Shown here in pieces: positions 32,874-37,833 of a stretch of DNA of 43,378 nt. The position numbers and the translations under genes were made by a program. Within the stretch, counting starts at the first letter, position 1. Each line of letters opens with the position of its first letter. The notes beneath the pieces are model-generated. The model did not search any database and had not been told where the DNA came from. It saw only the letters and a program-made list of their open reading frames with translations. The stretch is from a virus: IMG/VR virus record IMGVR_UViG_3300042996_000003, positions 1 to 43,378 of that record; one strand, given 5' to 3'.

Positions 32874-33339
32874 CGGTCTGAACCTCCTCAAAGGAGGCGG
32901 CGCCGCTTTCAAGCACCTTCAGGCGGAAAGTCGTTCCATCGGACCAGACCCATCCCCAAAGCTTATGTTCGCCTGGCTCTAAGCCTTCCCATGACTTCAT
33001 CTGCTCGATGTAGTCTTCAACGCTCTGCCCCATGACATCGCTGTCGATATCGCTGATGCAGTTGGTGTCGGCGTCGAAAGGAGGATCGCACCGCCACGAG
33101 CCATCATCATTGATGGTGAGCACCGAAGTCCCACGATCTTCGTGCCAACAAAATTCCACCTCTTCGCCTGGCGCGAGCAGGCGGCAGGGAGGACTGTCAT
33201 CAGCCCGTTCCTGCTCATCTGCCGCAGCCAGCATCCAGATGTCACTGAAGCCTTTCAGCAGGAATGCATCTGGTGATGTCCCCAAAGCGGGAACACTCTC
33301 GTCCAGCCATTCTGCTGGCAACCACTTGCGTTCGCTCAC
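32863..33339 (-). CDS. Acidic hypothetical early protein
   Basis: A 158-residue protein with a GTG start that overlaps the helicase-methyltransferase stop as GTGA. It is strongly acidic and rich in Trp and aromatic residues (KSWEGLEPGEHKLWGWVWSDG), with a DNA-mimic-like charge excess in its middle. No family is recognised. Acidic small phage proteins sometimes act as inhibitors of DNA-binding defence proteins, but nothing here proves it. Confidence 0.65.
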   Translation of the reverse strand: MSERKWLPAEWLDESVPALGTSPDAFLLKGFSDIWMLAAADEQERADDSPPCRLLAPGEEVEFCWHEDRGTSVLTINDDGSWRCDPPFDADTNCISDIDSDVMGQSVEDYIEQMKSWEGLEPGEHKLWGWVWSDGTTFRLKVLESGAASFEEVQTDAA

Positions 33340-35966
33340 GCCACTTTCTCCTCTTGCTCGATGCCCATCAGGCCAAACAGATCCGGCATCGCCATCTGCT
33401 CAGCCATGGCGCGCACATAGGCGCAGCCGTCCACGAAATAGGCGGGGTTGAGTTCGACGCCCCAGCCTTGCCGGCCGAGCTGCAGCGCCCGATAGGGCAC
33501 ACTCATCAGGCCGCCGAAGGGGTCAAAGACGATCTCGCCCGGTTCGGAATATTGGTTCACCGCCCGGTCGATGATGTCGAACTGCAGCGGGCAAAGGTGC
33601 ATTTCGCGCCCGGCCTGCGCCTGCAGCGTGTTCATCGACAGCATGCGCGCCACATCGGTCCAGACGTTCTCGTCCTTGCTGTGCGGCGGCAGCAGCATGA
33701 AGGTGGATGGCAACGCGCCGACCTCTTCGAGCGCCTCGGCGATCCGCACATGGTGCTGGAAATCGTAGACGCTGTTGAGCTGGTACGCTTTCCACAGCTT
33801 GTAGATGACGTTGGCATCCAGATGGAGCAGCTCTTCGGGCGTCAGCAGCCTGTTGCCCGATGTCGGTTCATAGCCATGGGCATCGAGCTGCCAGCGGGCG
33901 CGGCTATAGCCATCGTCCACGCTCCATTTGCCATTGGTGAACAGCTTCTTGGGCTTGCTCACCGGCTTGTCGGCATAGCCATTGCTGCTGTCGCTGGGCG
34001 GCTTGCGGAAGATCAGCAGATACTCGGGCAAACCATTGCCCATCCGCGAACCGTCTTTGCACTGCTCTGTCCAGCCCAGCCGATAGGTCTGGTTGTTCTC
34101 CCGCACCACATCGGTGGTGATGGTTTTGCGGGCGAGAAAGGCAAAGCCATGGCTGCGAAACCGCGCCGTGCAATCATCGGCAAAGGGGTAGACGGTTTGG
34201 AACCCCAACCCTGTCATGCCACCGGGCACGATCCGGTCTTTGACGTGGATCGCTGCCACCCGCCCCGGCTTGAGAATGCGAAACAGCTGCGGGATCAGGA
34301 AGTCCATCTGCGCCCAGAAATGGGCATTGTCGTCTGTGTGGCCGAAGTCGGCATAGTTCGGCGAATACTCGTACTGCGTCGAAAACGGGATCGAGGTGAC
34401 GATCAGATCGACACTGTCGGCAGCCATCCGCGTCGTCTCCTTGACGCAATCCTCATTGACCAGGCGGAACCCGTTGCCGCTCACTTCCACCCGTTCCACG
34501 CCCATGGCGCGAGTCAGCGATTGCGCCATTGCCGCTGAGGCAAGGCCATATTCCCGGATGATTGAGGTCATGATTGCCATCTGCTGGTCATGGCGGCGCC
34601 ACTTGGCTTCCAGCACATCGCGCACGGGACGTTCGGCCCCGGTATAGATGAGGTCGAGGCGCACCCGGCTCGTCTGCAGGAATCGGTAGCAGCGATGCAC
34701 CGCCTGGATGAAGTCGTTGAACTTGAACCCGATGCCGAGGAAGATTTCCCAGGAACAATGCCGCTGGAAATTACTGCCCGATCCAGCAATCACCGGCTTG
34801 GTGGCCAGCTCGGGAATGCGCCCGTCGGCGAAGTCAGAAAGGATCTTCTCCCGCTCGTCGAGGTCCTGGCTGCCATAGACCGATGCCATGCCCGGTACCG
34901 CAGCCTCGATCGCTCGGCGCTCGTCTTCCAGATCGTGCCAGATAACCCGGTGCGCCTGCGGATAAAGCGCCCGCAGCTCCACCATCTTGGCCACGCGGGC
35001 ATCGAGGCTATCGCGCTTCTCACGAGCCGCATCAGACAGCGAGGCGGCGGCGTTGCGCAGCAAGCGCCCCTGTCCGCTTTTTTCCGCCCCGGCCGTGGAA
35101 TGATCCGCCGGCAACTCGTGCCAGTGCACATCAAGGCCAGGCAGCTCGTAGCCCTCATCGGAAAAGCCCAAATCGCTCGGCTTCTGGACAAACAGGCCCC
35201 AGCTCGCCACCCACAGCCAGAACTCGCGTTCCTTATGCGGATGGATGGTCAGCGTGTCGGCCTTCTCGCTGTTGCGCTTGAAGAACCGGGTCTTGGCCTG
35301 GCCAACATCCATCACCTCGAGGAATGCCGAATAGGCGAGCAGTTCGATGAACTGGTTTGGCGAAGGCGTGGCAGTGGCAACGAACTTGAACCGCACGCCG
35401 TCAAACAGCTTCATGAACTCGCGAAACGTCTTGGTGCCGCCAAAGCCGCGCAACACCGATGCTTCGTCCAGGCTCGCCGCCGAGAACTCCCGCGGATCGA
35501 TCTTGCTGTCCCGGATCGTTTCGTAATTGGTGATATAGAGCAGCCCGTCGACGGTGCCTTCCGTGCTGCGAATGAAGCGCAGACTTGGCACGCGTTCCGG
35601 ATGGCCGTCCTGCCAGGCGCAAAGCTCGGCGCGTTGCGCATCGGTGATGTGCGGATGCTCGCCCGTCGCCAGCGTTTGAACGTCAGCGAAGAATTCGCGG
35701 CGCACGCCGAGCGGGGCGGCGATCAATCCCTTGCCGCCGAACCGCGCAACCACCAGGCGCAGGATCTCGATCTGCATGAAACTTTTGCCCAGCCCAAAGG
35801 CGGCAAAGATCGCGCGGCGCCCGCCCTGGCAGGCCCAAATGACGATCGCTTTCTGATGCGGCTTGAGCAGCGGGTTGATGTCGTCTGCCGATACGGCAAA
35901 TCCCGACACCGGCGCCATGGCCACCTTAGCGGCGAGGAACTGATCGTATTGCTGAGGCAGATTCAT
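33336..35966 (-). CDS. Helicase-DNA methyltransferase fusion
   Basis: An 876-residue two-part protein. Residues about 25-470 form an SF2/SNF2-like helicase: motif I AAFGLGKSF, motif II ASLDEAS, motif III VATATPSPN and motif VI QAVHRCYRF. The C-terminal ~400 residues form a DNA methyltransferase with permuted order: a motif IV position reading TSIPFSTQYE, and later motif I FDPFGG followed by VELNPAYF. The usual (D/N/S)PP(Y/F) is SIPF here, with the middle Pro replaced by Ile, so activity is uncertain. It is ATGA-coupled to the C5 methyltransferase gene. Likely roles are DNA modification or protection during replication. Confidence 0.9.
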   Translation of the reverse strand: MNLPQQYDQFLAAKVAMAPVSGFAVSADDINPLLKPHQKAIVIWACQGGRRAIFAAFGLGKSFMQIEILRLVVARFGGKGLIAAPLGVRREFFADVQTLATGEHPHITDAQRAELCAWQDGHPERVPSLRFIRSTEGTVDGLLYITNYETIRDSKIDPREFSAASLDEASVLRGFGGTKTFREFMKLFDGVRFKFVATATPSPNQFIELLAYSAFLEVMDVGQAKTRFFKRNSEKADTLTIHPHKEREFWLWVASWGLFVQKPSDLGFSDEGYELPGLDVHWHELPADHSTAGAEKSGQGRLLRNAAASLSDAAREKRDSLDARVAKMVELRALYPQAHRVIWHDLEDERRAIEAAVPGMASVYGSQDLDEREKILSDFADGRIPELATKPVIAGSGSNFQRHCSWEIFLGIGFKFNDFIQAVHRCYRFLQTSRVRLDLIYTGAERPVRDVLEAKWRRHDQQMAIMTSIIREYGLASAAMAQSLTRAMGVERVEVSGNGFRLVNEDCVKETTRMAADSVDLIVTSIPFSTQYEYSPNYADFGHTDDNAHFWAQMDFLIPQLFRILKPGRVAAIHVKDRIVPGGMTGLGFQTVYPFADDCTARFRSHGFAFLARKTITTDVVRENNQTYRLGWTEQCKDGSRMGNGLPEYLLIFRKPPSDSSNGYADKPVSKPKKLFTNGKWSVDDGYSRARWQLDAHGYEPTSGNRLLTPEELLHLDANVIYKLWKAYQLNSVYDFQHHVRIAEALEEVGALPSTFMLLPPHSKDENVWTDVARMLSMNTLQAQAGREMHLCPLQFDIIDRAVNQYSEPGEIVFDPFGGLMSVPYRALQLGRQGWGVELNPAYFVDGCAYVRAMAEQMAMPDLFGLMGIEQEEKVA

Positions 35967-37261
35967 GGCTGCACCATCAATCCAGCAAGCTCAGCTGCGC
36001 CGGAATGGCCGGTTGCGGCGAGGCGAGTGACAAGAGTGCGGACCGCATGCGCTGCTGCCAGGCTGACAACGCCGTTGCCGAGCAGGCGAAGTCGGTCCAC
36101 GCGAGCAATGTCCAGCCGGGAGGCCAGCCCATCAGCCACTCGACGAAAAGAGGGTTCAAGCTCCGGCGTAGGTGAGAGGACACTTGCCCAACCGGATAAG
36201 TCGCGGGGTCCTGGCGGGAAAAGATAGGTTCCGCCAACTCTAAAGTCTTGTTCATCGACCGGGAGTTCCCCGGCTGATGGCTGTCGCCGAAGCCCAGCGA
36301 CGTTGGGGTTGGCCACAACACTGCCACTTCGTTCAAGGGCGCTCCCTTGGAGCCCCGATCCTGCAGCTCGTCCTTGTTCGCTCCCTTGATGTCCCTGGCT
36401 TGGGGTGTCGGCCAAAGAACCACTGCCGCCCGGGTGAGGCTCGGCAAGCCGCTGTTGTATTCCTGTCCTGGCGAGCCCTTGTCCCCATCCGTTGCATTCG
36501 GCGTCGGCCACTTGATCGCCTGCTCCTGCAAATCCGGCCCGCCCGCTCCCCGCTCTTCCCGCTTGGAATTCGGACCGCCCGATATGGCCTTCGGCGTCGT
36601 CCACATCGCCGCTTGGTTCTGCAGCCCAACTTGTGCCTTGGTCCCGTCTGGACGCATGCCAGTCGCGGACGTACCCGACGGCATGCCCCGGCCGCCGTTC
36701 GGAACGTCTGGGGTCAGCCAGTGTGAGGATGAAGATACGTTCGCGCTCATGGCTTGCGCCAACTTCTGCCGCCGTGAACAGTCCACCCTCAACCGCATAA
36801 CCCAGCTTGAGTAGGTCTCCGCGTACCCGACTGGCGCCAGCGACTTCATCAGCCCCTGCCGCGAGCATGCCTCCGACATTCTCGATGAGGACAAACCAAG
36901 GGCGAGCTTGGACGACGATGCGGCGAGTGGCGCTCCAGAGATCCCGATGGTCGTGCTGTCCGCGCTTTTTGCCTGCCAGGCTGTGAGGCTGGCACGGGAT
37001 GCCGCCAATGAGGCCATCCACAAGACCGCGCCATGGGAAGCCATCAAAGGATCGCACATCGTCCCAGATAGCTGCTGGAGCCATGAGACCTTGTTCAATC
37101 GCCCGAACCAGGTGCGCGACGGCGAAGGCTTCCCTCTCCACCATAACGACGCTTCGAGCCGTTGGGAGAGCGAGTTCAAGTCCAAGGTCGAGCCCGCCGC
37201 CACCGGTGCAGAGCGAAAGGATGTTGAGGGATCTGGCTGCGGGATGTAGAGCCACATTCAA
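35963..37261 (-). CDS. C5 cytosine DNA methyltransferase
   Basis: A 432-residue cytosine-5 methyltransferase. Motif I is SLCTGGGGLDLGLE (16-29), motif IV GGIPCQPHS with catalytic Cys90, motif VI ENVGG (127-131), motif VIII ASHERERIFIL (169-179), and motif X LLGNGVVSLAAAHA near 393-407. The target-recognition part (about 183-340) is low in complexity, with repeated (V/L)AD(P/A/T). It starts at TTG 37261, overlapping the previous stop as TTGA, with GAGG 7 bases upstream. A second long open frame lies inside it. It probably protects phage DNA from host restriction. Confidence 0.92.
   Translation of the reverse strand: MNVALHPAARSLNILSLCTGGGGLDLGLELALPTARSVVMVEREAFAVAHLVRAIEQGLMAPAAIWDDVRSFDGFPWRGLVDGLIGGIPCQPHSLAGKKRGQHDHRDLWSATRRIVVQARPWFVLIENVGGMLAAGADEVAGASRVRGDLLKLGYAVEGGLFTAAEVGASHERERIFILTLADPRRSERRPGHAVGYVRDWHASRRDQGTSWAAEPSGDVDDAEGHIGRSEFQAGRAGSGRAGFAGAGDQVADAECNGWGQGLARTGIQQRLAEPHPGGSGSLADTPSQGHQGSEQGRAAGSGLQGSALERSGSVVANPNVAGLRRQPSAGELPVDEQDFRVGGTYLFPPGPRDLSGWASVLSPTPELEPSFRRVADGLASRLDIARVDRLRLLGNGVVSLAAAHAVRTLVTRLAATGHSGAAELAGLMVQP
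35977..37257 (-). CDS. Alternative +1-frame ORF within the C5 methyltransferase gene (WPTP-repeat protein)
   Basis: A 426-codon open frame, from ATG 37257, fully inside the methyltransferase gene. The product carries regularly spaced WxTP units (about residues 180, 219, 250, 282 and 315) and a C-terminal LNPLFVEWLMGWPPGWT block (367-383). I remember both as features of proteins annotated in other phages. The frame shares the GAGG site of the methyltransferase start. The two frames mirror each other: each WPTP falls where the other frame reads (V/L)AD(P/A/T). Whether this frame is translated here cannot be told from sequence. Confidence 0.4.
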   Translation of the reverse strand: MWLYIPQPDPSTSFRSAPVAAGSTLDLNSLSQRLEASLWWRGKPSPSRTWFGRLNKVSWLQQLSGTMCDPLMASHGAVLWMASLAASRASLTAWQAKSADSTTIGISGAPLAASSSKLALGLSSSRMSEACSRQGLMKSLAPVGYAETYSSWVMRLRVDCSRRQKLAQAMSANVSSSSHWLTPDVPNGGRGMPSGTSATGMRPDGTKAQVGLQNQAAMWTTPKAISGGPNSKREERGAGGPDLQEQAIKWPTPNATDGDKGSPGQEYNSGLPSLTRAAVVLWPTPQARDIKGANKDELQDRGSKGAPLNEVAVLWPTPTSLGFGDSHQPGNSRSMNKTLELAEPIFSRQDPATYPVGQVSSHLRRSLNPLFVEWLMGWPPGWTLLAWTDFACSATALSAWQQRMRSALLSLASPQPAIPAQLSLLD

Positions 37262-37833
37262 CGCGCCACCTCAAACCAATTAGCCTTGATGATGCTGCGC
37301 ATCCGTTCGGCTTCTTTGCCGACAAGCGTGAACCGGGCTTCTAGTTTTCTCGCATAGGGCTCAACCGTGACCGTGAAGCCCTCGCTGGCCAGCGCGCCGC
37401 GCAGTCGTCCCACCATCTTGTGGGTAGAGCTGTTGAGGTCGTGGAGTTGCGCGACGGGCTCAAGATCACCGGTCAACAGGCCACCGTCGCGCAGCATCAT
37501 TTCGATCGCATCGCGGTACCAGGGCGTGGAGAACAGCTCGCGCAGCTTGCGGTTTCGCGGCTTGTAACTGGCACTTGCTCCCGATGGACCGACAGGAGGA
37601 AGCCGGTAGTTCTCCCCCATCCAGCCCGACAATTTGCGCAGATTCCCAGCACGGGCATTGGCGAGCATGGCGCGCACCTGCGGCGTGCTGCAGCCGATCG
37701 CCAAGCCTAGGGTGTGTTCCGATATGCGCTCCTCATTGAGCAGCAGCAGCCCGTGCATCAGGTGCGGATCGTGGGTCACGTCAGGGACATCGGCGCGTGA
37801 GCGCAGCGCCTGAACAACAGCAAGGGCGTTCAT
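37258..37833 (-). CDS. Hypothetical early protein with HTH-like start
   Basis: A 191-residue basic protein. Residues about 25-60 (ERISEHTLGLAIGCSTPQVRAML) read like a helix-turn-helix. The C-terminal part (VEPYARKLEARFTLVGKEAERM) is basic and probably beta-alpha. It overlaps neighbours by ATGA and TTGA. It may be a DNA-binding early regulator or a replication helper; no family is recognised. Confidence 0.65.
   Translation of the reverse strand: MNALAVVQALRSRADVPDVTHDPHLMHGLLLLNEERISEHTLGLAIGCSTPQVRAMLANARAGNLRKLSGWMGENYRLPPVGPSGASASYKPRNRKLRELFSTPWYRDAIEMMLRDGGLLTGDLEPVAQLHDLNSSTHKMVGRLRGALASEGFTVTVEPYARKLEARFTLVGKEAERMRSIIKANWFEVAR

Follow-up and report, generated by a model that had tools for sequence, protein, structure and literature searches.

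A second reading frame within a phage cytosine methyltransferase gene, +1 relative to it, is a genuine gene, missed or misnamed in present annotations. The two frames, here termed alpha and beta (Table 1), share 1.28 kb of the minus strand in the window (the whole stretch of DNA analysed, a virus record of 43,378 bases), and over 1.3 kb both are open and conserved, here and at more than 200 related loci. Selection maintains the two frames. Motifs IX and X of the enzyme are divided between them, and in single-chain relatives the same parts are united in a single frame. We consider it very likely that alpha and beta are two subunits of one C5 cytosine methyltransferase whose genes overlap almost completely. 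In the absence of expression or activity data, translation of both chains, their assembly, the reading of DNA by the beta repeats, methylation at cytosine C5 and the need for both chains are inferred.

An initial annotation had listed two long ORFs here, and both were found at those positions with the starts it gave. Alpha matches PF00145 over residues 13-182 (E 1.6e-25) and phrog_363 over most of its length (residues 10-411). Its translation contains GGIPCQPHSLAG and ENV, and the PF00145 catalytic motifs I, IV (PCQ), VI (ENV) and VIII are all present. Searches of Pfam, NCBIfam, PADLOC and PDB sequences with beta alone gave no match. It matches two annotation families, phrog_27243 (unknown function, E 1.5e-25) and phrog_1008 (labelled DNA methyltransferase, E 1.1e-21). 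Positions 133-280 of the 329 in phrog_1008 match beta and positions 287-323 match the C-terminus of alpha, showing that in this family, where the repeats and motif X stand in one frame, a single protein combines portions of the two frames. The next gene (window 33336-35966, minus strand) overlaps the alpha stop by 4 nt and matches phrog_16 (DNA helicase). It also has an N6/N4 methylase domain (PF01555) and, as judged from these matches, appears to combine a helicase with a second DNA methyltransferase.

Table 1. Features of the alpha/beta gene pair, in window coordinates.
Feature	Position	Strand	Description
Alpha ORF	35963..37261	-	Frame 0, TTG start, 432 aa; motifs I-VIII and X, without motif IX; proposed catalytic subunit
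Beta ORF	35977..37257	-	+1 frame relative to alpha, ATG start, 426 aa; WxTP repeats and motif IX; proposed subunit
GAGG, Shine-Dalgarno-like core	37269..37272	-	Precedes TTG 37259-37261 (alpha) and ATG 37255-37257 (beta)
Alpha motifs I-VIII, residues 13-182	36716..37225	-	Alpha constrained; beta open, as a passenger
Beta repeat region, residues 180-318	36304..36720	-	WxTP at 180, 219, 250, 282 and 315; alpha an open (V/L)AD linker
LNPLFVEWLMGWPPGWT, beta residues 367-383	36109..36159	-	Putative motif IX, beta only; identity from order, position and pattern
RLRLLGNGVV..., alpha residues 390-410	36032..36094	-	Motif X, alpha only; phrog_363 match and motif survey

Scanning with beta recovered 80 loci in IMG/VR and 72 in bacterial genomes, mostly of Alphaproteobacteria. 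Most of the loci from IMG/VR had the two frames open and alignable from end to end. Selection bias from loci found with beta was addressed with a profile of alpha motifs I-VIII only, which avoids choice by the frame under test and gave 80 loci. In nearly all of these the +1 frame was open to its last codons; the third frame held 2-25 stops. Searches for related loci with the whole alpha protein, or with a 9-sequence profile, returned no loci.

Expected numbers of stops were obtained by resampling synonymous codons from each gene's own usage. For the alpha gene of the window, 300 synonymous shuffles gave a mean of 6.6 beta-frame stops and none had as few as the one observed, which is the TGA of the upstream gene before the beta ATG. 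Across 32 non-redundant loci selected with alpha, beta-frame stops numbered 0 against 62.8 expected over motifs I-VIII and 1 against 19.1 over the repeats. The +2 frame of the same loci served as a control and showed little avoidance (148 against 183 over motifs I-VIII, 160 against 169 over the repeats). The avoidance of beta stops is also seen at a G+C of 0.45-0.50 (loci L168, L195 and L203), and single-chain relatives lack it in their +1 frame over motifs I-VIII (54 observed, 61.4 expected). In the converse test the amino acids of beta were held fixed and alpha-frame stops were counted over the repeats, with 23 observed against 462 expected, 22 of them in L169 and L171, which belong to one lineage. 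No alpha stops were present over the repeats in 135 of 138 loci, where 11 such loci were expected; the third frame held 671 stops against 613 expected. Taken together, the two tests indicate that the alpha and beta frames are kept open independently. By the reckoning of the initial annotation, stops in the second frame of many homologous methyltransferases would have made beta a by-product, and homologues selected as methyltransferases keep it open. Similarity in the alternative frames was also compared with synonymous shuffles. An excess was found in +1 (z 11.0) and also in +2 (z 7.6), the latter because synonymous sites were not fully randomised, and we therefore relied on stops and codon positions instead.

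Codon positions reveal which frame is constrained where. Between close pairs, substitutions at alpha codon positions 1/2/3 were.115/.072/.263 over motifs I-VIII, which is the wobble of alpha, and.269/.071/.063 over the repeats, which is that of beta. The corresponding values in loci selected with beta were.176/.104/.334 and.312/.146/.148. In the best-sampled family, of 29 loci and 371 codons, alpha wobble gives way sharply to beta wobble directly behind motif VIII and resumes at motif X. Single-chain relatives have an ordinary wobble in their in-frame repeats (.131/.106/.354); they replace a flanking-ORF control of 10 pairs, which was set aside as flawed because it took the longest ORF on either strand. 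With these relatives as control, both frames are selected to stay open and conserved, as befits a genuine overlapping gene pair. Between the widespread artefact and the dual-coded gene that the initial annotation had left as options, the stop and synonymous-site tests thus support the latter, and beta is the constrained frame over the repeats. The accompanying idea, that the target-recognition part evolved to suit both frames, needs correction: the repeats belong to beta as the protein, with alpha merely an open passenger there, and over motifs I-VIII the reverse is true. In the first half of beta, constraint is less evident for the residues than for the openness of the frame. A structure model of beta was poor (pLDDT 60, pTM 0.26) and too weak for a fold search. 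Helices predicted around residues 31-60 and 149-168 (pLDDT 79-90) may partly reflect the conservation of alpha, and we claim no function for this half.

The five WxTP units of beta stand where they had first been described. Their supposed coincidence with (V/L)AD repeats in alpha holds for four of the five, which fall at (V/L)A(D/N) (alpha residues 181, 251, 283 and 316), and fails for the fifth, which is VDDAE. The coincidence of the two repeat series arises from TGGCCNACNCC, which is translated as WPTP in the beta frame and as (V/L)AD in the alpha frame. Across loci the number of repeats in beta is mostly 1-6. The repeats are probably the target-recognition part, which is an inference, as the poor model of beta did not show the fold of a recognition domain. 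The C-terminal block of beta that had looked conserved, LNPLFVEWLMGWP, was found from residue 367. Here LNPLFVEWLMGWPPGWT is most likely the motif IX that alpha lacks. This identification rests on order, position and pattern: the single-chain profile aligns LxPxFxEWMMGWPxGW...GNGVV in order with M.HhaI 273-307 (KLHPRECARVMGYPDSYKV...GNSVV), the region of motifs IX and X. The motif IX-X segment alone scored -3.6 bits in the HMM alignment, which is not significant. Of 231 loci, 214 have the motif IX block (LNPxFVEWLMGWPxGW) in beta and 208 have motif X in alpha; the converse occurs in 1 and 2, respectively. Most of the 231 loci do not hold motif IX, motif X and the recognition region in one chain: X is in alpha, and the IX-like block and the repeats are in beta.

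The GAGG thought to serve both starts does precede the TTG and the ATG. The stop of the upstream gene (TGA 37258-37260) lies between the two starts, with the beta ATG directly after it. A possible alpha start codon exactly 4 nt before the beta start was present in 128 of 209 loci (ATG 67, GTG 39, TTG 22), most commonly in the contexts ATGCATG, GTGAATG, ATGAATG and TTGAATG. An AGGA, GGAG or GAGG core lay upstream of the starts in 112 of the 209, and in nearly all cases the beta protein began with M(x)W[LI]xxP or a slight variation of it. The 4-nt spacing in relatives leads us to favour two putative initiations from one Shine-Dalgarno site.

In the proposed mechanism, one Shine-Dalgarno site would load ribosomes that start at the alpha TTG or, 4 nt on, at the beta ATG. 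Alpha would fold as the catalytic large domain from motifs I-VIII and the C-terminal motif X, its middle being a passenger linker that must be read through because motif X has to be reached. Beta would supply the WxTP repeats and motif IX in trans. Because beta starts upstream of motifs I-VIII it would have to be open over them, and its first ~150 residues would be mostly passenger sequence. The complex may then methylate phage DNA, and perhaps that of the host, for example as protection from restriction. More broadly, it seems probable that this is a widespread enzyme of phages and prophages, with two ~430-residue subunits from one almost fully shared stretch of DNA, starts 4 nt apart, a working frame that switches twice and long passenger parts that need only be open. 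On this reading, the DNA target would be set or varied through the number of beta repeats, with the catalytic subunit left unchanged.

Programmed frameshifting could instead give a single chain, by starting at alpha, slipping +1 after motif VIII and slipping back for motif X. The constrained frame does change exactly at both proposed slip borders, and the single-chain relatives share that order of parts. However, such slipping leaves unneeded both the openness of beta over motifs I-VIII (0 stops against 62.8) and that of alpha over the repeats (23 against 462), has no need of a beta start 4 nt after that of alpha, and requires two slips in opposite directions (slippery sites were not examined). 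That each frame is open through the stretch where the other is the working protein points to two full-length chains, and we give frameshifting only a slim chance.

A genuine beta might also be no methyltransferase subunit at all, acting as an inhibitor or DNA-binding partner that shares only ancestry with a recognition part. We regard this as improbable, despite the lack of sequence matches noted above, an N-terminal half without known relative and the unknown function of PHROG 27243. Motif IX, present in nearly all the single-chain relatives found, is missing from alpha and supplied by beta; phrog_1008, labelled a DNA methyltransferase, spans beta and the C-terminus of alpha; and in split actinophage pairs the repeats, IX and X stand together in the second gene. 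Long spurious frames are frequent in high-G+C genes, and conserved alpha residues fix parts of beta, so that an untranslated by-product of a G+C-rich, conserved methyltransferase gene had to be considered. It is barely tenable and in practice already refuted: stop avoidance is far above the expectation from codon usage, also at a G+C of 0.45-0.50, the repeats have a beta-type wobble, beta is open in L169 and L171 despite 8 and 14 alpha stops, and the single-chain relatives show no avoidance of +1 stops. Two overlapping genes for two subunits remain our preferred reading.

Two known C5 enzymes offer a comparison, M.EcoHK31I (recognition sequence YGGCCR) and M.AquI (CYCGRG). The small ORF of EcoHK31I was reportedly found by Lee, Kam and Shaw in 1995 to lie inside the large ORF in another frame. 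Both are two-polypeptide enzymes: in M.EcoHK31I the large chain holds motifs I-VIII, X and the predicted recognition domain and the small chain only IX, and in M.AquI the large chain holds I-VIII and the small chain IX and X (PMC3404938). EcoHK31I has been termed naturally split (PMC3439449). The phage pair has the motif layout of M.EcoHK31I, with I-VIII and X in alpha, and IX, as an LNPxFVEWLMG block, in beta alone (214/231 loci, the segment score being insignificant); this likeness is one of layout, without sequence comparison. Unlike EcoHK31I, where the predicted recognition domain is in the large subunit, the phage repeats are in beta, which is of about the same length as alpha and begins 4 nt downstream of the alpha start. 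M.AquI is alike in forming one C5 enzyme from two chains with I-VIII in the large one, but its small chain has IX and X, whereas the phage keeps X together with I-VIII in alpha. In layout, AquI comes nearer to the split actinophage pairs Severus gp77/76 and TaylorSipht gp40/41. A literature search, mostly outside subscription papers, found no report of such an overlap in phages. As far as searched, no description exists of the full-length overlap with its 4-nt start spacing, of a beta that bears the repeats, or of the spread across phages and prophages.

The statement in the initial annotation that the beta type is an annotated protein of other phages was correct, with PHROG 27243 and 1008 as families and CDSs in Ssp-JY39 and Alfacinha1/3. 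Different records annotate different frames of one gene: in the Synechococcus phages (OM868082.1, PP438429.1), alpha is annotated as a cytosine methyltransferase in Yong-M2-251 and beta as a hypothetical protein in Ssp-JY39, and in the Acidovorax phages (OP131590.1, OP131587.1), beta is annotated as a methyltransferase in Alfacinha1 and 3. Databases consequently hold both frames as separate families. This is a systematic error, in that gene callers keep one frame and discard its partner, and near-identical phages show a methyltransferase or a hypothetical protein at one place. Near-complete overlap of two long proteins on the same strand, with both frames under selection, is rare in bacteria and phages, and its recurrence in more than 200 loci makes a comparative study possible. 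Moreover, single-chain, partly overlapping and fully overlapping forms are all present, a natural system for the origin of the overlap. Should the recognition part lie in beta, the repeats would form a module on which target specificity can be tested.

The actinophage single chains (ShiLan gp70, DillTech15 gp66, L253-L271) share with the pair the I-VIII family, xPTP units, the LxPxFxEWMMGWPxGW block and GNGVV, but carry all of these in one frame and without +1 stop avoidance over I-VIII. Nearly every single-chain relative found has motif IX. For L253, a structure model aligned with M.HhaI across residues 1-381 of the model (Z 22.5, rmsd 3.6, 232 aligned), with the repeats themselves at low confidence. 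In the split, partly overlapping forms, TaylorSipht gp40/41 and Severus gp77/76, the second gene holds the repeats, IX and X together. In L247:1434-2603 and L253-L271 the stretch from motif VIII to the first in-frame repeat evolves with the wobble of the +1 frame (.286/.138/.162). This stretch in ShiLan, when read in +1, contains more LLPTP/MLPTP units. The stretch may be a relic or a still-used overlapping frame.

Lastly, a full-length alpha is not universal. In five loci (L070, L071, L072, L169 and L171) the alpha linker is broken, being full of stops (8 over the repeats in L169, 14 in L171), with beta open. Motif X there has its own ATG (MGNA..., e.g. L171:3677), and an AGGTG/GGGTG core a few bases upstream is conserved in all five, which suggests a putative enzyme in three pieces. 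L173 and L177 were considered as in-frame fusions, but have frame breaks with an AC run or undetermined bases nearby and were treated as probable assembly errors. In L173 the frames are exchanged upstream of an ACACAC run between the repeats and the motif IX/X region, probably an assembly error, though phase variation is possible. In L175 an HNH-like, cysteine-rich stretch is encoded in the +1 frame after the motif IX block and before motif X, with frame 0 open, an apparent insertion in the dual-coded gene.
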